A stretch of 64,000 bases of DNA, from NCBI GenBank assembly GCA_039028635.1, contig JBCCHV010000037.1, forward strand, positions 1 to 64,000, read 5' to 3'. Below are positions 24,929 to 33,402 of this stretch, piece by piece. A program made the position numbers and the translations under genes. The stretch is from Acidobacteriota bacterium. Lineage in GTDB: Bacteria > Acidobacteriota > Thermoanaerobaculia > Multivoradales > JBCCEF01. Each line of letters begins with the position of its first letter. Position 1 is the first letter of the stretch. The notes under the pieces were generated by a model. That model did no database searches. It was not told the DNA's origin and was given only the letters and a program-made list of their open reading frames with translations.

Positions 24929-26260
24929 CTAGGCCGACTGCTGGAAGGCGAGCTGGGGATCTCGCCGGGCGCGCTCGAGATACTGCGTCAAGTCGGCCAG
25001 CAGGCCCGTGGTGACGGCCTCTTCTTGCGCCGCTTGCTGGAGTAGCAGCAGCGCCGCGAGCGCTTCGCGATGAACCGCCTGCACCTCGAAGATGCCGCGG
25101 ATCTCCTCGGCGACCTCCACCACCTCACGCCGCCGACCTTGGCGCATCAGCACCGCCGCCAGCTCGAGGGAGACCAGGGCGGCATCGAAGGCTTTGCCTT
25201 CCGCGACGAAACCATCGCGGGTGGCGCGAAAACCTTCGGTCGCCTCGGCGAGCCGGTCGAAGCCGGCCGCGACCTTGGATTCGAGCCAGCTGAGGCGAAG
25301 TTGGGTCCACGGTTCCGGAAACTCCCGGTAGCGATGGCGGACCGCCGCGAGACCTTCTCGGGCTTCACCAAACTGCCCACCTTCGGCGAGATAGAACAGG
25401 CGATTGTGAATCGCGCAGAGGGAAAGGAACGGCTCCTGCAAGCCCTCGAGACAGCGCTCCGCCCTCTCGACGGCCGCGATCGCGCCTTCGAGATCACCGG
25501 TTTCCTTGTAGACGGTGCTCGCCGACAGCAGCGTCCGCGCCACACTCACCGGATCTTCGGCGAGCTGATAGAGCACTGCAGAACGACTGAAGAGAGCCTC
25601 ACTGGCGGAGAACCGACGCTGATCACAGGCCAGAATCGCCTCCAGCCAGTCGAGCTCGGCGAGGGCGAGGGAATCGACCAGCTGCTGCTGACGGGCCATG
25701 GCGCGAGCGGCATCGAGTCGGCGCCGTGCCTGCCGAAGCTCCCCATCGGCTCGCAGCGCATTACCGAGATGGGCCAGGGAAAGCACCATCAACTCTCCCT
25801 GGAATGGCGCCGGAATGCGGAGGGAAACCTCATAGGCGAGCTCTGAGAAATGACGGGCCTCGGCCGCGGCCCCCGGCAGGGCCGCCCGACAGTCGCGCAG
25901 CAGAGCCTCCGCCAGAAACGGACTGCGGAAGCGTCTTCGGGCCCGCTGGACGCGACCCAAGCGATCTCCCGGACCGAGCCGAAGCAACGTCTGGTAGTCC
26001 TCCCTCGACCGCTGACGTTCGTCGGACAGCTCCCGATGAAGGTCCGCCGAACGGCGGCGGACGCGAGCAAAAACATCGTCCATCGCGGCACCGTCGTCGG
26101 CGACCTCGGTCGGCTCGCGTTGGAATCGCAACAGTTCCTCGCGACAGGTCGGACAGATCTGAGAGAGGTGGCTCAGCACCCACTGAGTCACGCTCTCCGC
26201 ATCGACCTTGCCAGAATCAAGGGCGCGCAAGATTTCGGCGGTGATATGGATATCCGTCAC
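24929..26260 (-). CDS. TPR-like helical-repeat protein with N-terminal HX4CXXC motif
   Basis: A 443-aa protein with no signal or membrane segment. The GTG at 26260 behind GGGAGGA is preferred. The first about 45 residues contain VLSHLSQICPTCREELLRF, an HX4CXXC pattern like that of zinc-finger anti-sigma domains. The rest is a series of TPR-like helix pairs, e.g. GELMVLSLAHLGNALRADGE, SVARTLLSASTVYKETGDLEGAI and ALVSLELAAVLMRQGRRREVV. It is the last gene of the leftward sigma/anti-sigma/CHAT cluster, 104 bp after the small exported protein. It could be a cytoplasmic scaffold or a second sigma-binding protein. Function not known. Confidence 0.8.
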   Translation of the reverse strand: MTDIHITAEILRALDSGKVDAESVTQWVLSHLSQICPTCREELLRFQREPTEVADDGAAMDDVFARVRRRSADLHRELSDERQRSREDYQTLLRLGPGDRLGRVQRARRRFRSPFLAEALLRDCRAALPGAAAEARHFSELAYEVSLRIPAPFQGELMVLSLAHLGNALRADGELRQARRRLDAARAMARQQQLVDSLALAELDWLEAILACDQRRFSASEALFSRSAVLYQLAEDPVSVARTLLSASTVYKETGDLEGAIAAVERAERCLEGLQEPFLSLCAIHNRLFYLAEGGQFGEAREGLAAVRHRYREFPEPWTQLRLSWLESKVAAGFDRLAEATEGFRATRDGFVAEGKAFDAALVSLELAAVLMRQGRRREVVEVAEEIRGIFEVQAVHREALAALLLLQQAAQEEAVTTGLLADLTQYLERARRDPQLAFQQSA

Positions 26261-26364
26261 AAGTCCTCCCGATCGGTGTCCCCTGATATTGGGTGTGAGG
26301 AACTTCGAGTTTTCGTGACAAAAAGATCGCGCCGGCGCACCTCGAGCGACGCACCGGCGCTGTT

Positions 26365-26628
26365 TCAACGGGCCGCCACACCTCCCCCAGGATCCATCTG
26401 ACCTCCACCGTCATCTCCTTCATGGGTCGGCTCGCCGTTCCCCGTCGTCTCCTCCGGAGTCGAGCTCGAGCCCGCCCCGAAGGACTCCAGGAGGTTCGAC
26501 CAGAACAAGGCGAGACGACTCGACGGTGTCCTCGCTTCGAGCTCCGGAGCGCCGTAGAGCGAAAGCCCCAACGACGCCATGCAGACAATCAAGACGAGGA
26601 GAACGAGGTTGCGTGCACTTCTTCGCAT
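26365..26628 (-). CDS. Small exported protein with Gly-rich MDPGG tail
   Basis: An 87-aa protein. It begins with a signal or anchor segment (RNLVLLVLIVCMASLGLSLYG), then a short helical part (RLALFWSNLLESFG), then a low-complexity acidic/Gly/Thr tail ending GGGQMDPGGGVAAR. GGGGAG precedes the ATG at good spacing. It lies between the CHAT gene and the TPR gene, in the same direction. It has no cysteine pair or enzyme motif. Being exported and small and next to an exported CHAT protease, it is a natural candidate substrate or signal (inference). Confidence 0.7.
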   Translation of the reverse strand: MRRSARNLVLLVLIVCMASLGLSLYGAPELEARTPSSRLALFWSNLLESFGAGSSSTPEETTGNGEPTHEGDDGGGQMDPGGGVAAR

Positions 26629-26817
26629 AGTCCACTCCCCCTATGGACGGGTCGAAATGGGGGCTTCGATGCCCCTATCGCCCGCCGCCACTTAGAAGAG
26701 TGCCTCAAAGCGTAACGATTGCGTCAAGAAGCAAAAAAATCATCGGCCAACGACAGGCCGAGGGCGGCTTCTCGAGGCGATCCCATCTCGCGGAAGCCCC
26801 GATCCGCTTGCAGGCAG

Positions 26818-27020
26818 CTAGCAGGTTGCTGAGAAGCCTGCGACCGAGCACGCAAGGGCTCGGCGGCGAAGCCGCAAGACGGGGTGAGCCCCTGCGCGAG
26901 CCGCCGAAACCGCACTTTTTCGGGCCGGACCGCGCAGGCGAGGAGGCGCTCAGCCCCTTTGATAAACGGCAAGCAGCGCTGAAAAGCTCGCGAAGCGCGA
27001 CTTTCTCAGCAGCCTGCTAG
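26818..27020. repeat. 203-bp inverted-repeat element (MITE-like), CTAGCAGG family
   Basis: Left end CTAGCAGGTTGCTGAGAAG (26818-26836) and right end TTCTCAGCAGCCTGCTAG (27003-27020) are inverted repeats with one mismatch. The interior has further hairpins and no gene. The TAG stop of the CHAT gene is formed by the right end of the element. The same end sequence is found alone at 1544-1562 and in two copies at 140-344. No transposase is encoded; it would have to be moved in trans. Confidence 0.75.
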
Positions 27021-29797
27021 CGCAGCCAGCGGCGGCCGAGCAAGTAGGCGAGCAGCAGCACGAAGAGGAGAATCGTAATCATGATCGATCTCTGGTGACA
27101 GGCCCACCAACGGCGAGCCGGCGGTTGCTCGAAGGGCACGAACTCACCGTCTCCAAGCACCATGATGCCGGCCCAGGCCTCGACCGGCAGCCCCTCGCGA
27201 CGCAGCGCATCCTGGGTCTTGCCGAGGGCCTGGGCAACGGAGACGCCTTGCACCAGCTCGCGATAGAAAGAGGTAAAGAAATACTCCGCATGCGCATCCT
27301 GCAGGGACCAGTAACTACCGATGACCACACGCGCTCCCGCCTCGAAGAAGGCGCGCGCCAGGCCGAGGGGCCCCTCCCCCTGCAGGATGCGTCCGGTCGC
27401 ACCGCGGCAGGCCGACAAGACCACCATGTGCTGATCGAGATCGAGATCGACGATCTCGGGAATCGAGAGCCGCCCATCGTCGTCACCGGTCCCGGAGGTC
27501 AAGAGCACCGCCGAGCGCTCCGGCTGATCGCGATCGGTCATCGCATGGGTGGCGAAGTGAAGGATCTGGAAGTCCGAAGGCGGCGTTTGCTTCAGCCGCC
27601 CTTCGGTGGCCTCGGCTCCCATCCAGGCGCGGCTGCCACCACCCAGCACGCAGACGATCTCGCGACCCTCCCGCCGAGCATGGGGCAACGGACCGAGGTC
27701 CTTGCGCGCCAACACGCGCTCGAGCCTTTCCACCTGGACCGGCTCATCGCTGAGATCGGCAACCTGTAGCGGCACCGGATCGGCAAAGACCAGGGCTGGC
27801 GTCGCGAAGGGCGGCTCGGCCCGGGCTCGAGTCTGGCGCTGCTCGAACCAAAGGGTCGCCGAGGGCACCACCGAGAGGCTGAAGCGCTCGGTGATGGATC
27901 GCCCGTCGCCGAGCTCGACGAGGGCGAAGGGGAAGCGGTGGAGATTGCCATCGGGCACGATGGTGAGCTTGGTCACCTCCGGCGGCAAGGCCGCGATCGG
28001 CCCTGCGAAAAGCGACTCGGTCAGCGCCGAGAGAGGTCGCGGCAGCAATGGGTCGGCCGGCAAGTTGCGCTCGAAGAGATTGAGGAACATCCTCACTTGG
28101 TCCTCCACCTCGTCGCCGGACGGCAGACGGAAGATCTCGACGCTTTTTGGACGCAGAACCAAAGCCCAGGAGCCGCCGGCGAAGGATCCGTTGGCATAGC
28201 GATCCCGCGCCATCTGGAAGGTGAGCAGTGCTTCATCCGGCGCCATTCGCGCCTGCACCTGCCGGAGGTCCGGAATCAGTGCTTCCCAAGAGTCGTCCTG
28301 GCGGCGAGCCACGGGCCCCAACAGCTCCAGCAGATTCCGCGCCCTGACCCGTTCGGCGAGAACGAAAGCCTCCTCGACCGCCGCCGACGGCTCCAGCTCG
28401 GAGGTCGCCTGTGCGAGGAGGCGACCACTGACGGTGGCGTAAAGGCGACGCCAGACAGCGAACACTTCGGCTCGGCTGCCGCGGCTCTGCTGTTGCCGTC
28501 GAAGCTCTTCGATCTCCTGCAGATAGGCCTGCGACTTCGTCAGGGCATCCTCGAGGCCGCCCATTCTTGGTTCTTCCCAAACGACCTCGAGGGCATCCTC
28601 CAGCATGTTCAAGCGCACGCTGCCGCGCTGCCCGGCGAGCAAGGCCTCCACCTCGGCAGTACTGGCCTCGCCAGCCCTCGCCGCCAGCAGCGAGCTTCGG
28701 CAGTAGAGCGCCTCGGTCCTCGGCCGGTCGGCGGCGAGCTCGAGGCAACGCTCGAAGTCGGCTCGTCCGTCCTCCTTGCCACGCAAGCGCCCGAGCTCAT
28801 TCCAAGCCAACATCTCGAGACCGACGGATCCGGTCGCTTCGGCCAGCTCGACGATGCGCGCGAGCTTGGCTTCGAGATCGCCGATTTCTCCCTGCAGCAC
28901 CCGGAACACCACCTGGTCGTAGAGACTGCGAGCCTCGGTGCTGAGAGCGCCGTGCTCGCGCGCCCAATCGGCGAGCTCGCGCAGCACACCTTGCGCCGCC
29001 GCGTAGCGCCCCATCTCACCCAGCGCCTTGGCCAGAACGCTCAGGCTGGTGCGATAGACGTCGCGATCCAGGCCCGTCCGCGGCGCGACCGCGCGGATCC
29101 GCTCACAGGTTTCCTGCACACCCCTAAGGTCCTCACCGAGGCGGAATTGGCGCTCCGCCCGGAGTAAATCGAGCCGCAGGCAAGGCACGTCCGTCGAGCC
29201 GGCCTCGGGACACCTTTCTCCCAGAAAGCTCGCCAGCTGGCGCTCCCGCTGCTCCGCCTGGTCGAACCGACCGCGCGCCAGCTCGAGGCGCGCCAAGACG
29301 ATGTGGCAGGAAACCACTCCCTCGAGATCATCGGCGGCGCGGAACTCCGGCAGCAGGTCCAGGATGGCCGCGATCGTCCCAGCCCGGTCCGATCCATAGG
29401 TCAACAAGGCACGAAAGTACCGAGTCCATCGTGAGCTCGGCTCGGCGGCGAGTCGTGTGAGATAGAGCCGGCGGGCCTCCGGCCCGGAACGGGAGGCGCG
29501 GAACAGGCAGATCAAGCGCTCGCGACCGCCGGCCGCGTGGGCGTCACAGGAGGCCAAGGCATCGACCGCCGACGGCGCTTCGGCCTCGGCGGCCGCGGGC
29601 CTCGAGACCACCGAGGAGGCGGCGACCGCCAGGACCAGCCATCCGACCATGGTCGCGACTCGGAGACGACGCCAGGCGCCGAGCAAGCTGCGTCGGGCCG
29701 GCCTGCGCCCGCCCTGCGCCGCGGCGACGGACCGGCGCCCCTCGCCCTCCGAGGCGGCGTCCGCGAACCAGCTCCCGTCCCTCCCTGTCACTCCCAT
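27017..29797 (-). CDS. Exported TPR-CHAT peptidase with C-terminal membrane anchor
   Basis: A 926-aa protein. A long basic N-region with RRLRV is followed by a hydrophobic segment ending ASSVVSRPAAAEA (about residues 50-75), a signal peptide or anchor. The middle (about 90-480) is a set of TPR-like helical repeats. The C-terminal third is a CHAT domain: H751 in ILHFATHAMTD and C797 in VLSACRGATGRILQGEG form the caspase-like His/Cys pair, with GARVVIGSYWSLQDAHAEYF after it. The last about 25 residues (MITILLFVLLLAYLLGRRWLR) are a transmembrane helix. If the N-segment is cleaved, the peptidase faces the periplasm, unlike the cytosolic TPR-CHAT of type III-E CRISPR. The ATG has GGGAG upstream. 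The stop is formed by the right end of an inverted-repeat element. Confidence 0.88.
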   Translation of the reverse strand: MGVTGRDGSWFADAASEGEGRRSVAAAQGGRRPARRSLLGAWRRLRVATMVGWLVLAVAASSVVSRPAAAEAEAPSAVDALASCDAHAAGGRERLICLFRASRSGPEARRLYLTRLAAEPSSRWTRYFRALLTYGSDRAGTIAAILDLLPEFRAADDLEGVVSCHIVLARLELARGRFDQAEQRERQLASFLGERCPEAGSTDVPCLRLDLLRAERQFRLGEDLRGVQETCERIRAVAPRTGLDRDVYRTSLSVLAKALGEMGRYAAAQGVLRELADWAREHGALSTEARSLYDQVVFRVLQGEIGDLEAKLARIVELAEATGSVGLEMLAWNELGRLRGKEDGRADFERCLELAADRPRTEALYCRSSLLAARAGEASTAEVEALLAGQRGSVRLNMLEDALEVVWEEPRMGGLEDALTKSQAYLQEIEELRRQQQSRGSRAEVFAVWRRLYATVSGRLLAQATSELEPSAAVEEAFVLAERVRARNLLELLGPVARRQDDSWEALIPDLRQVQARMAPDEALLTFQMARDRYANGSFAGGSWALVLRPKSVEIFRLPSGDEVEDQVRMFLNLFERNLPADPLLPRPLSALTESLFAGPIAALPPEVTKLTIVPDGNLHRFPFALVELGDGRSITERFSLSVVPSATLWFEQRQTRARAEPPFATPALVFADPVPLQVADLSDEPVQVERLERVLARKDLGPLPHARREGREIVCVLGGGSRAWMGAEATEGRLKQTPPSDFQILHFATHAMTDRDQPERSAVLLTSGTGDDDGRLSIPEIVDLDLDQHMVVLSACRGATGRILQGEGPLGLARAFFEAGARVVIGSYWSLQDAHAEYFFTSFYRELVQGVSVAQALGKTQDALRREGLPVEAWAGIMVLGDGEFVPFEQPPARRWWACHQRSIMITILLFVLLLAYLLGRRWLR

Positions 29798-29861
29798 TCA
29801 GCTCCCTTCCCGCCTCGGCGAGAGTCGTTCGGTTCGTCCTTGGCGAGCCCTGGCGATCGGC

Positions 29862-30527
29862 CTAACTCACCTCCGAGGGCTGCCCTCCGAAGCGCTCCAA
29901 CAGCTCGCCGAGGCGCGGCTCCGCATAACCCTTGAGCGGCCTGTAGTCGGGGTCTTCCTCGACCCTCTTGGCCTCGGCGAGAAAGCGCCTTTTGTCGTCG
30001 ACAGCGCCGTCTCGCCAGCAGGCTTCGGCACGCAGCAGCCAGTAGGCGAGGATGAGGTCCTGATCGCTCTTGGAGACCGCCCCCAGGTCCTGCTCCTCGA
30101 GCCTCTCGATCAGCGGTCGCAGGTCTTCCCCTCCACACAGCGCAATCTCGAGATCGGCCAGCAAGAGTCGGCGAGTCTGGTCCTCGGCCAAGGCGTACTT
30201 CATCTTCGCCGCCTGAGAGAGCTGCTCCCGAGCTGCGTCGTGCCTCTCGCCACGCGCCAACATGCGAGCCCTCGCGACCTGACATCGGAAGGACTCCTGG
30301 GGATGGCGTTCTTGGTAGCCCGCACCGATGGCATAGAGCTGTTCCGAGAGCAGAAACTTCTCGATTCGATAGCAGTGATCGGCGACGTGCAAGAGGCACT
30401 CGAGGTGAAGGTCCGACGCCTCCACCACGACATGGGGCTCTTCCTCGTCAATCGTCACCCGCGCCGGTTTTCCGGTCGATTGGTGCGTTCCGGTCTTGTT
30501 ATCGGTAGTGTCCTCGAGATTCGTCAT
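29862..30527 (-). CDS. Helical-repeat protein of unknown function in the CHAT cluster
   Basis: A 221-aa soluble protein. The ATG at 30527 is chosen because GGGAAGGGAG precedes it. The first about 35 residues are polar and probably flexible (MTNLEDTTDNKTGTHQSTGK). The rest reads as alpha-helical repeats: ECLLHVADHCYRIEKFLLSEQLYAIG, then RARMLARGERHDAAREQLSQAA and AYWLLRAEACWRDGAVDDKRRF. No catalytic motif or export signal is visible. It lies 64 bp upstream of the CHAT gene and 68 bp downstream of the anti-sigma gene, so it belongs to the same transcript and could be an adaptor. Confidence 0.75.
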   Translation of the reverse strand: MTNLEDTTDNKTGTHQSTGKPARVTIDEEEPHVVVEASDLHLECLLHVADHCYRIEKFLLSEQLYAIGAGYQERHPQESFRCQVARARMLARGERHDAAREQLSQAAKMKYALAEDQTRRLLLADLEIALCGGEDLRPLIERLEEQDLGAVSKSDQDLILAYWLLRAEACWRDGAVDDKRRFLAEAKRVEEDPDYRPLKGYAEPRLGELLERFGGQPSEVS

Positions 30528-30595
30528 CGCAGCTCCCTTCCCTGATTCAACCGATGAGACCGCCCTGCAAGTCCATCCCTCCACAGAGCCGATCC

Positions 30596-31333
30596 CTACT
30601 TCGAAAGACCTTCGACGGTCTCCCCCTGGTTCTCACAGCAGGGAGAAGGTCCGAAGGTGAGATAAAACGTCGGCGATTCGATCACTTCACCAGCGGGCGT
30701 CTCCGCGACGACCCGCCACAAGAGCATCTCTCCGAGCACCAGCGCAGGAAGCTCGTCGAGACCCACGGTCAGCCGTGGCACCGTCAAACCGGACTCGCTG
30801 ATCACCGGCGCGAGGTCCTCGCGCTTGATCCAAACGCTGTAGAGAGAGCCCTCGGGAGCCCCCTCCCAACACAGCACGAAGGGCTGATGCAGCGGCATCG
30901 TCTCGCCGTCGAGAGGTGAGGAGATCTCGGGCTCCTCGCCGCGACTGACCACGTGATCAGGCCCCGGGCGCAGGTCATCCTGCGAGAAGAAGATGCCACT
31001 CAGAACCAGAACCAATCCCGCGGCGAGGGCCGCCGGCTTCAACCACTTCCGCCAACCCGGCCGAACCGGCTGCTGCGCCGCCTTGATCGCCTGCAGGTGG
31101 CCGGCGCAGCGCGGACATCTCAGAAGATGAGCCAAGACCTCGCGGGTTTCCTCGGGCGTTGTTTCGAGACGAGCCAGGCGCCAGAGAGTCTCGGCCCCAG
31201 GGCAAGAGGAAGCGACGCCCCCCTCTTCGCTCTCGGCACCGAGATCTAGCTTCGGATAGCGGTCATCGAGGCACTCGTGAAGGAAGTGTCGATAGGCCCG
31301 AGTCAGATCTTGCTGGGAAAGTCGCTTCGACAT
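30596..31333 (-). CDS. Zinc-finger anti-sigma factor, single-pass membrane protein
   Basis: A 245-aa protein. The N-terminal half contains EVLAHLLRCPRCAGHL, an HXXXCXXC zinc motif as in ZAS-type anti-sigma factors (about residues 68-80). One membrane helix follows (LKPAALAAGLVLVLSGIFF, about 97-115). The extracytoplasmic domain of about 125 residues (ISSPLDGETMPLHQPFVLCWEGA) looks like a beta-rich sensor. It follows the ECF sigma gene after a 359-bp gap and precedes the helical-repeat and CHAT genes. The expected role is to hold the sigma factor at the membrane until an envelope signal arrives. Confidence 0.82.
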   Translation of the reverse strand: MSKRLSQQDLTRAYRHFLHECLDDRYPKLDLGAESEEGGVASSCPGAETLWRLARLETTPEETREVLAHLLRCPRCAGHLQAIKAAQQPVRPGWRKWLKPAALAAGLVLVLSGIFFSQDDLRPGPDHVVSRGEEPEISSPLDGETMPLHQPFVLCWEGAPEGSLYSVWIKREDLAPVISESGLTVPRLTVGLDELPALVLGEMLLWRVVAETPAGEVIESPTFYLTFGPSPCCENQGETVEGLSK

Positions 31334-31692
31334 GGATTACAACGTCCTTCGTGAGATTAGTGAGCGCCGGGGCCTGCGGGATCGGAGAAACCACTTCTTG
31401 GGTCTTTCGGCCGGGGACCGAGGCGGCTGGGCCTTGCGTAAGCCCGATTGCGAAGTTCTTGACGTCTGGCGGCCAGGATTCCCTCGGGTCGATATCTCTC
31501 CGAGCTCCGGGAAAGCCCGTCGAACGGAGTGTGGCGCCCAGGGCGCAGAGTGCCCGACCTCGCCGGCAACCGGACCGCCGATCGGAGTCCGGAAGGCGAG
31601 GTTCCGCGGCGGCGCCGAGCGGCCCCGAGGGCACCGCAAGGCAGCGTCCGCCGTCGACCGACGGCACGCCGTAAAGCCTCGATAGGTAGCTC
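31334..31692. other. 359-bp gap between sigma and anti-sigma genes
   Basis: Several frames are open on both strands but none has a good start, ribosome-binding site or coherent composition. This is unusually long for a sigma/anti-sigma pair and could hold a sigma-dependent promoter for the anti-sigma/CHAT operon (reading left). I see no clear -35/-10 pair or terminator. Confidence 0.4.
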
Positions 31693-32301
31693 TCATGAGG
31701 GGCCGAAACCCTTCTCATGAAGACACTCCCGAAGCAGCTTTCGACCCGCCGTCAGGCGATTGTCGACCACCCGCTGGCCGAGACCGAGAACCTGGCGAAT
31801 CTCCCTCTGTTTGAAGCCCAGGATGTCGAGCTGCAGGACGTCGACCAGCTTGGGCCGACGCTGTGCGATCGCTGCCAGACATTCGTGGATCGCCCGGCCC
31901 AGGTCGCCCCGGGTCGGCGGCACGCGAATGCCCGGCGGCTCGATCGCGGGATCCAGCTCGGCTTCCCATCGACCCTTGCGCCGCCGGTCGATGACTTCGT
32001 TCTTGACCGTGGTGATGAGGTAGGCATCCGGGAGACGGCGGCGCTCGCGATCGTCGGAGTAGCGGCGGTGGATGCGCAGCCACGAGCTCTGCACCACATC
32101 TTCACGGTCGGATTCGGCGACCCCGAGCTTGGGCAGCAACCAGCGACCGATTCCGGTGAGCCGGCGGTAGGTCGAGCCGGCGGAGAGATCCGTCACGGCA
32201 CCCGAACCTCTCTTTGGAGGTGCGGTGGACCGACCTTCCTTTTCAGCCCGGCTCGATGGCGCAGTCCGCGACTCCTCGCCACTTGCCCTCCCCAGGGTCA
32301 T
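31693..32301 (-). CDS. ECF-type RNA polymerase sigma factor
   Basis: A 202-aa sigma factor. Region 2 is seen in LGVAESDREDVVQSSWLRIHRRY and LITTVKNEVIDRRRKGRW; region 4 in PKLVDVLQLDILGFKQREIRQVLGLGQRVVDNRLTAGRKLL. The ATG at 32301 has GAGGAGG nine bases upstream; a GTG 35 codons later (before TDLSAGSTYRR) is also possible and would remove a polar N-terminal tail. It heads the leftward cluster with an anti-sigma factor, a helical-repeat protein, a CHAT peptidase, a small exported protein and a TPR protein, so it probably controls them. Confidence 0.88.
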   Translation of the reverse strand: MTLGRASGEESRTAPSSRAEKEGRSTAPPKRGSGAVTDLSAGSTYRRLTGIGRWLLPKLGVAESDREDVVQSSWLRIHRRYSDDRERRRLPDAYLITTVKNEVIDRRRKGRWEAELDPAIEPPGIRVPPTRGDLGRAIHECLAAIAQRRPKLVDVLQLDILGFKQREIRQVLGLGQRVVDNRLTAGRKLLRECLHEKGFGPS

Positions 32302-32505: not shown

Positions 32506-33402
32506 TCATCGCTGCTGAGCCGCGGTCCGCCAAGCCGGCAGCTCGGGATCGTCCCGCAGCCAGTCGAGCAGGCGAGCGCCGTCGACCTCGTCGACGCGCA
32601 TCGGCACGACCACGATCTTGCCGTCCGAGTGCAAACTCTCGTCGGCCAGCGGCGACAACGACACCTCCCGCTCCACCATCGCGGCGACCTTCCAGATACC
32701 GGAGGCCTCGTCGGCCTCGAAGCGCGGTCCGCGTCGAAGCGGCGCGCGGTCCGCGATCTCGACCCCGTGTACCTCGTCCGGCGCCACCCGCGGGAGGCTG
32801 ACGGTGAGGTACTCTCCCGGCTTCAGATCCTGCACCACGCGGTGCTCCGTCAGCCGCACCACCCAATCGACGGACGCCTCGACGGCACCGGGGAGGTCGT
32901 CATCGAGGCCCGAGACGGCGATCGCCGGAATCCCCACCAGGGCCGCGATGCGCGCCGCCCCGATGGTGCCCGAAAACATCCAAGTGCCCCCCAGGTTGGG
33001 ACCGCCGTTGATGCCGGAGATCACCAGCGTCGGCGGCCGATCGCGCAGCATGCCCGCCAGGGCCACCACCACGCAATCTCCCGGGAAACCGTCGACGGCG
33101 AAGGCCTCGATTCCGCTGCCGAGATCTCGCCGCTCCACGGCCAAGGCGCCGGTGCGCGGAAAGCTCAGCGACGCACCGGTCCCGCTACGGTCCTCGGCCG
33201 GTGCCACCACCCAGGTTTCGGCCCGCGGCGCAAAGGCGCGAGCGAGGGCGATCAGCTTGGGATCGTCAATGCCGTTGTCATTGGTGATCAAGACTCGCGG
33301 CCGGACGGCCTCTTCGGCGGGCGCCGCCGCCAGCGGCCAAGCGGCCGTCATCGAAACCAGGGCGATAGACAGGACTCTCACTGTTCGGATGATTCGAGAC
33401 AT
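32506..33402 (-). CDS. SurE-like 5'/3'-nucleotidase, exported
   Basis: A 298-aa protein of the SurE survival-protein family, metal-dependent phosphatases of nucleoside monophosphates. The core is RVLITNDNGIDDPKL (the metal-binding NDNG/DD motif), APAEDRSGTGASLSF, and ISGINGGPNLGGTWMFSGTIGAA with the conserved Asn/Gly pattern. Unlike the usual cytoplasmic SurE it has an N-terminal export signal (VRVLSIALVSMTAAWPLAAAPA), so it probably works in the periplasm. The C-terminal about 50 residues are longer than in E. coli SurE. The ATG has GGAGGAG upstream. The LuxR gene lies upstream by 78 bp on the same strand. Confidence 0.88.
   Translation of the reverse strand: MSRIIRTVRVLSIALVSMTAAWPLAAAPAEEAVRPRVLITNDNGIDDPKLIALARAFAPRAETWVVAPAEDRSGTGASLSFPRTGALAVERRDLGSGIEAFAVDGFPGDCVVVALAGMLRDRPPTLVISGINGGPNLGGTWMFSGTIGAARIAALVGIPAIAVSGLDDDLPGAVEASVDWVVRLTEHRVVQDLKPGEYLTVSLPRVAPDEVHGVEIADRAPLRRGPRFEADEASGIWKVAAMVEREVSLSPLADESLHSDGKIVVVPMRVDEVDGARLLDWLRDDPELPAWRTAAQQR

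Follow-up and report, generated by a model that had tools for sequence, protein, structure and literature searches.

A candidate peptide-signalling gene pair adjoining a sigma/anti-sigma/CHAT protease module in an Acidobacteriota genome

The first 64,000 nucleotides of the Acidobacteriota bacterium contig JBCCHV010000037.1 (assembly GCA_039028635.1), hereafter the window, contain a cluster of six predicted genes at 24929–32301, all carried by the minus strand. ORF (open reading frame) and domain checks bore out both the common strand and the gene order given in a preliminary description of this DNA, where the six genes were regarded as one system. The cluster is, in fact, two independent adjoining modules, namely a sigma/anti-sigma/CHAT module (27–32.3 kb) and a pair of genes encoding a small, putatively exported peptide and a tetratricopeptide repeat (TPR) protein (24.9–26.6 kb); the latter is a candidate for peptide signalling resembling that of the RRNPP family. 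The features of the cluster are as follows:

31693–32301, minus strand: extracytoplasmic function (ECF) sigma factor (Sigma70_r2, 3.4e-8, and ECF models), with the core from about 32196
30596–31333, minus strand: membrane anti-sigma factor (zf-HC2, 2.8e-4) with a zinc-binding anti-sigma (ZAS) finger, HLLRCPRC, a single transmembrane segment (98–116) and a C-terminal extracytoplasmic domain
29862–30527, minus strand: helical (TPR-like) protein (TPR_14, E 0.096), lineage-specific, between the anti-sigma and CHAT genes
27017–29797, minus strand: TPR-CHAT protease of 926 aa (PF12770, 2.7e-53), or of 877 aa if translated from the alternative ATG at 29650
26815–27025, no strand assigned: multicopy palindromic element resembling miniature inverted-repeat (MITE) or repetitive extragenic palindromic (REP) sequences, with inverted ends, between the CHAT and peptide genes
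26743–26761, minus strand: terminator-like hairpin with a T-run, upstream of the peptide gene
26365–26628, minus strand: putatively exported propeptide of 87 aa, recognised by family membership, a Shine-Dalgarno-like sequence and its motif
26329–26360, minus strand: terminator-like hairpin (13-bp stem and GATCTTTTTG) between the peptide and receptor genes
24929–26260, minus strand: TPR regulator and putative peptide receptor of 443 aa (TPR_12, 1.7e-5) with an N-terminal anti-sigma-like zinc finger
26144–26248, minus strand: ZAS-like zinc quartet H5/H31/C36/C39 of the TPR regulator, recognised by alignment and profile match

The tight spacing that had been noted earlier holds for the anti-sigma, helical protein and CHAT genes, with gaps of 68 bp and 64 bp (the latter with CHAT starting at 29797; a start at 29650 makes it about 211 bp), but not for the sigma and anti-sigma genes (about 359 bp) or the CHAT and peptide genes (about 388 bp); the peptide and TPR genes are about 105 bp apart. 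A terminator-like hairpin and the palindromic element, which is about 200 bp long and has 42 matches in the same genome (some of them at the ends of contigs), lie in the gap between CHAT and the peptide gene, and a single operon of all six genes is therefore unlikely. Hairpins of the terminator type are not rare in this region (7 found versus 5.1 expected, about as in shuffled sequence), and a search of the cluster for sigma-70-like promoters found none.

Comparison of gene neighbourhoods separates the modules more clearly. Around CHAT homologues the sigma and anti-sigma genes recur, whereas the small peptide and the TPR gene with its Hx4CxxC motif, both previously counted as parts of the CHAT system, do not: neither adjoins CHAT in related loci, no motif-bearing peptide was found near the other CHAT genes examined, and peptide–TPR pairs occur far from any CHAT gene. 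In a genome of the same genus, the TPR relative that comes closest is on a different contig from the closest CHAT relatives. A single six-gene CHAT system was rejected on these neighbourhoods, in the own genome of the window and in related genomes. A sigma-controlled cascade of this kind, in which CHAT would cleave the 87-aa peptide with the TPR protein as adaptor, agrees with the adjacency and common strand of the six genes in the window and with the TPR-family profile, which also matches CHAT ORFs, the TPR parts of some CHATs resembling the TPR protein; however, the multicopy element and the hairpin lie between CHAT and the peptide gene, and the neighbourhoods largely refute such a cascade, making it highly improbable.

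The 87-aa peptide is composed of a hydrophobic, signal-like N-terminus, an aromatic helix (LALFWSNLLESFG), an acidic linker and a degenerate tail motif, GGGQMDPGG; the Shine-Dalgarno-like sequence GGGGGAG precedes its ORF, and the motif DNA occurs in the window once versus 0.04 expected. Across 59 genomes, this peptide has only one good relative; its gene stands away from CHAT, directly upstream of a TPR-protein paralogue, and this location led to the TPR family. The small ORFs around TPR genes mostly possess the same plan, with an N-terminus like that of a signal peptide, an aromatic helix and, at the C-terminal end, a [ED]xG[PS]x[MIL]DP[ND]G unit; the N-termini of the propeptides are hydrophobic and signal-like as judged by hydrophobicity, and XRE-type copies have no leader. 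Among 53 motif units, in which D, P and G are set by the search pattern itself, G is found at −4 in 51/53, [MIL] at −1 in 45/53 and [DN] at +2 in 39/53. Two to four units are present in 12 of the 33 upstream precursors, and one exported 196-aa ORF contains nine.

The clearest multi-copy precursor is an exported ORF of the same genome (L144:4481-5056, contig C34; also L125), which contains nine (E/D)HGPR[IV]DPNG units and is convergent with a TPR-family gene. At L143:2411-2956, two overlapping opposed ORFs with several DPNG-type units each are located about 3 kb from an XRE–TPR pair, and in Holophagales UBA5704 (L178, L180 and L183) there are two copies of a Cys-flanked GC[HY]IDP[NDY]GGC unit, possibly corresponding to disulfide-looped peptides. 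Leaderless peptides of 32–34 aa, MW..ILE[LI]LG...NPG[AI]DP[ND]G, are encoded convergently with XRE–TPR genes. Pfam contains no family for the peptides, the only match being a weak one between the nine-unit ORF and a repeat domain; NCBIfam gave no match above the cut-off, and a description of the peptide family was not found in the family libraries or in the literature on RRNPP systems, CHAT–sigma associations and Acidobacteriota peptides.

The tandem core units and the Cys-flanked variants could also suggest that the peptides are secreted products similar to bacteriocins or to ribosomally synthesised and post-translationally modified peptides (RiPPs), with the TPR protein as an immunity factor or dedicated regulator, and related Thermoanaerobaculia, including UBA5704, are rich in biosynthesis (PMC13083261). 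This explanation seems unlikely: genes for modification or ABC export were not seen to recur beside the pairs (in gene lists that were not systematically annotated), the precursors have putative Sec-type signals rather than RiPP leaders, and the ECF and XRE partners of the TPR genes, described below, point to regulation.

The pairing of peptide and TPR genes is firmly established. In the genome of the window, 12/21 TPR-family genes have a motif-bearing exported ORF no more than 1 kb away, versus 4/327 other genes (Fisher p=8.9e-14), and two of these four exceptions arise from peptides within a TPR locus and two from a single antisense ORF of the window. Other genomes, retrieved independently with the TPR sequence as the sole query, gave 26/44 versus 2/79 (p=8.4e-13), and a strict test that counted only upstream peptides gave 5/19 versus 0/406 (p=1e-7). 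The genes of these loci come from a simple caller based on codon bias, on which the 1-kb pairing windows depend. The 33 pairs have a median peptide length of 102 aa and a median gap of 139 bp. A terminator-like hairpin is present in 8/29 peptide–TPR gaps, including that of the window, versus 0.1 expected; in this position it would favour the amount of peptide over that of receptor.

The TPR protein contains the sequence HLSQICPTC (Hx4CxxC) and most likely starts at GTG 26260 (443 aa), since its relatives align from there; the alternative start at TTG 26368 was set aside for the same reason. Residues H5, H31, C36 and C39 are invariant in 24 aligned family members, and the N-terminal profile of the family has an hhalign match (probability 98%, pairwise E 2.9e-13) in the zinc fingers that membrane anti-sigma factors carry at the CHAT loci. 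Like class I ZAS anti-sigma factors (zf-HC2), the anti-sigma factor of the CHAT module has an Hx3CxxC finger, a transmembrane segment and an extracytoplasmic domain, and the TPR protein has a related finger; in contrast to these factors, the TPR proteins are soluble, the ZAS finger being joined to a TPR superhelix in place of a transmembrane segment and periplasmic sensor. A TPR-family ORF with two successive N-terminal zinc-finger motifs was observed at L099:2624-4381.

The TPR gene has 22 copies in the genome of the window, with many paralogues per genome elsewhere, and the family is present in 34/59 genomes of the order. A phylum-wide search found it only in this order, but six candidates per genome were scored at a strict cut-off, so its absence elsewhere is not proven; the named relatives are Acidobacteriota metagenome-assembled genomes (MAGs) of Thermoanaerobaculum, Holophagales UBA5704 and gp7, and one MAG labelled Deltaproteobacteria. 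An ECF sigma gene is located directly upstream of a zinc-finger TPR gene in five cases (L100, L103/L133, L162 twice and L182), the sigma factor of L133 being confirmed by Pfam. Paralogues without the finger lie directly downstream of an XRE gene (L143, L145, L146 and L147), and at L177 the TPR paralogue is fused to an XRE helix-turn-helix (HTH) domain. In addition, a 69-aa ORF at L132:7145-7354, resembling ECF sigma region 2 only and having no Pfam match, overlaps the beginning of a TPR gene of the zinc-finger type.

TPR proteins are often chaperones, and a cytoplasmic chaperone or secretion partner of an exported surface or matrix peptide, whose DPNG motif would serve in Ca binding or at the cell surface, might be imagined here, the more so as long precursors with nine units could be structural. 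We regard it as quite unlikely, because the ZAS, ECF and XRE partners are transcriptional parts and the variants of 32–34 aa without a signal peptide are ill-suited to a matrix protein. Small hydrophobic or Trp-rich peptides with XRE partners are also common in toxin–antitoxin loci, and the many paralogues per genome would suit a toxin–antitoxin or similar regulatory pair, in which an aromatic hydrophobic peptide would be toxic and the TPR protein, with its XRE or anti-sigma part, would neutralise or control it. The conservation, however, resides in the hydrophilic C-terminal motif, found in tandem in the 12 precursors mentioned above, and not in the hydrophobic part, and a pair of this type is very improbable.

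AlphaFold2 modelling of the TPR protein of the window as a monomer (pLDDT 86.6) predicted a TPR superhelix. The structural search with this model placed LGN first (Z 24.5), followed by Rap and NprR (Z 20–22 over about 300 residues), which are its best bacterial matches; for the model of the fused XRE–TPR protein, phi3T Rap was the top match, tied with LGN. Since LGN/Pins stands at or near the top, the fold alone is no proof of a pheromone receptor. At the level of sequence profiles, the family reaches RapF at 4e-9, with generic TPRs scoring better.

Peptide quorum sensing of the RRNPP type is documented in Firmicutes and the mobile elements they carry (PMC10075063, PMC9765709). The likeness to RRNPP(A) systems (Rap, NprR, PlcR, Rgg, PrgX, AimR) includes a small, putatively exported propeptide adjoining a TPR protein of 250–500 aa (87 aa and 443 aa in the window), an XRE HTH fused or adjacent in paralogues, and structural matches that among bacterial proteins are best for Rap and NprR; tandem duplication of the propeptide is also known there (PMC11343458). 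Unlike these systems, the window copy has a ZAS finger and neither an N-terminal XRE HTH nor a Rap-like 3-helix bundle, and the Acidobacteriota pairs belong to Gram-negative bacteria, are predicted here from genes and models, have ECF sigma partners, share a DP[ND]G signature among paralogues and reach 20–30 copies in several genomes. By sequence and model, the pair carries most of the published RRNPP signature (small propeptide, TPR receptor of 250–500 aa, adjacency) and would work like RRNPP systems; it is not filed as a member, because the window copy lacks the HTH and the 3-helix bundle and sequence homology is not established.

The second module is centred on the CHAT protease, which has an N-terminal export signal and a C-terminal transmembrane segment with a basic tail (854–872), the latter common to most close relatives. 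Its catalytic dyad is H702/C748 (877-aa numbering). Loss of the His/Cys pair in orthologues had been named beforehand as a possible refutation; the pair is invariant in 27/27 aligned CHATs. The genome (6.3 Mb) contains 25 CHAT-domain matches, 24 of them above the Pfam cut-off, and four lie within one 26-kb stretch of contig C6. At 14/20 CHAT loci examined in this genome, an ECF sigma gene is found no more than four genes away, usually with a zinc-finger transmembrane protein, and in related genomes, in several families of the order, the closest CHATs are again accompanied by sigma and/or anti-sigma genes; the linkage of a sigma/anti-sigma pair to an exported CHAT, proposed earlier, is therefore recurrent. 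The outer domain of the anti-sigma factor is conserved in the alignment of orthologues. No homologue of the helical gene was found in the slot between anti-sigma and CHAT in related loci, and it was rejected as a conserved member of the module. In PDB, the CHAT sequence had no match at E<=1.

Among characterised systems, the closest precedent is Craspase of type III-E CRISPR, where the TPR-CHAT protein Csx29 cleaves Csx30, an inhibitor of CASP-sigma (PMC10028731). In the window, too, a TPR-CHAT protease is encoded with an ECF sigma factor and a sigma inhibitor; in contrast to Craspase, this CHAT is exported and has a C-terminal transmembrane segment, and the inhibitor is a membrane zinc-finger anti-sigma factor. 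No CRISPR gene (Cas7-11/gRAMP, array) was found in or directly beside the cluster, the flanks of which encode SurE and an M28 peptidase. The SurE-family protein (window 32506–33402) adjoins the sigma gene and has an apparent export signal; SurE is usually cytoplasmic. In the ECF54 group, CHAT and subtilase genes occur in the context, a protease role was proposed for CHAT, and regulation was proposed without an anti-sigma factor (PMC8999054). A conserved CHAT adjoins the ECF sigma factor in the window as well, but with a canonical membrane zf-HC2 ZAS anti-sigma factor. By analogy, the best reading is that control runs between the periplasmic CHAT and its membrane anti-sigma factor, in one direction or the other; in the most likely course, an envelope signal would lead the anchored CHAT to cut the outer domain of the anti-sigma factor, or a partner, and the sigma factor would be freed.

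Taken jointly with this reading of CHAT, RRNPP-like peptide signalling in Gram-negative Acidobacteriota, with an anti-sigma or XRE output, is considered a somewhat probable explanation of the peptide–TPR pair, drawing on the pairing, the motif and its tandem copies, the HHCC quartet, the XRE and ECF partners, the attenuator-like hairpins, the predicted fold and the CHAT dyad. The propeptide would be exported by Sec and processed into a short peptide around [ED]xG[PS]x[MI]DP[ND]G, which would re-enter the cell and bind in the groove of the cytoplasmic TPR superhelix. Binding would alter the output domain of the TPR protein, which in the window copy is the ZAS finger that would hold an ECF sigma factor, and in paralogues would be the adjacent ECF sigma factor or XRE DNA-binding protein; release or capture of the sigma factor (or XRE protein) would be the output, and the terminator between the genes would hold the peptide high and the receptor low.

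Several points weigh against this reading. The re-import of the peptide across two membranes is assumed, the peptide and its binding are predictions from genes and models, and signal peptides were called by hydrophobicity only. Eukaryotic LGN/Pins scores equal to or above Rap, and TPR superhelices bind many ligands. Most zinc-finger TPR genes have no adjoining ECF sigma gene, and the co-variation of receptor and peptide is weak (Mantel r=0.18, p=0.01). In the peptide of the window itself the motif is weakly developed (MDPGG), and the ORF of this peptide has poor codon statistics; it was accepted as real because of its peptide family, motif and pairing statistics, and a chance ORF was rejected on these grounds despite the poor codon score. 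Cleavage of the anti-sigma factor by CHAT is suggested by analogy with Csx29/Csx30 alone.

More tentatively, and at slightly less than an even chance, the pairs may represent an undescribed family of Gram-negative peptide pheromones, with 20–30 parallel pairs in one Acidobacteriota genome, in which secreted [ED]xG[PS]x[MI]DP[ND]G peptides would control TPR–anti-sigma, TPR–ECF and TPR–XRE switches. If RRNPP-like signalling of this kind is true, intracellular peptide signalling would extend beyond Firmicutes to a Gram-negative phylum of soil and marine bacteria, and would include an anti-sigma output and a directly testable peptide motif.

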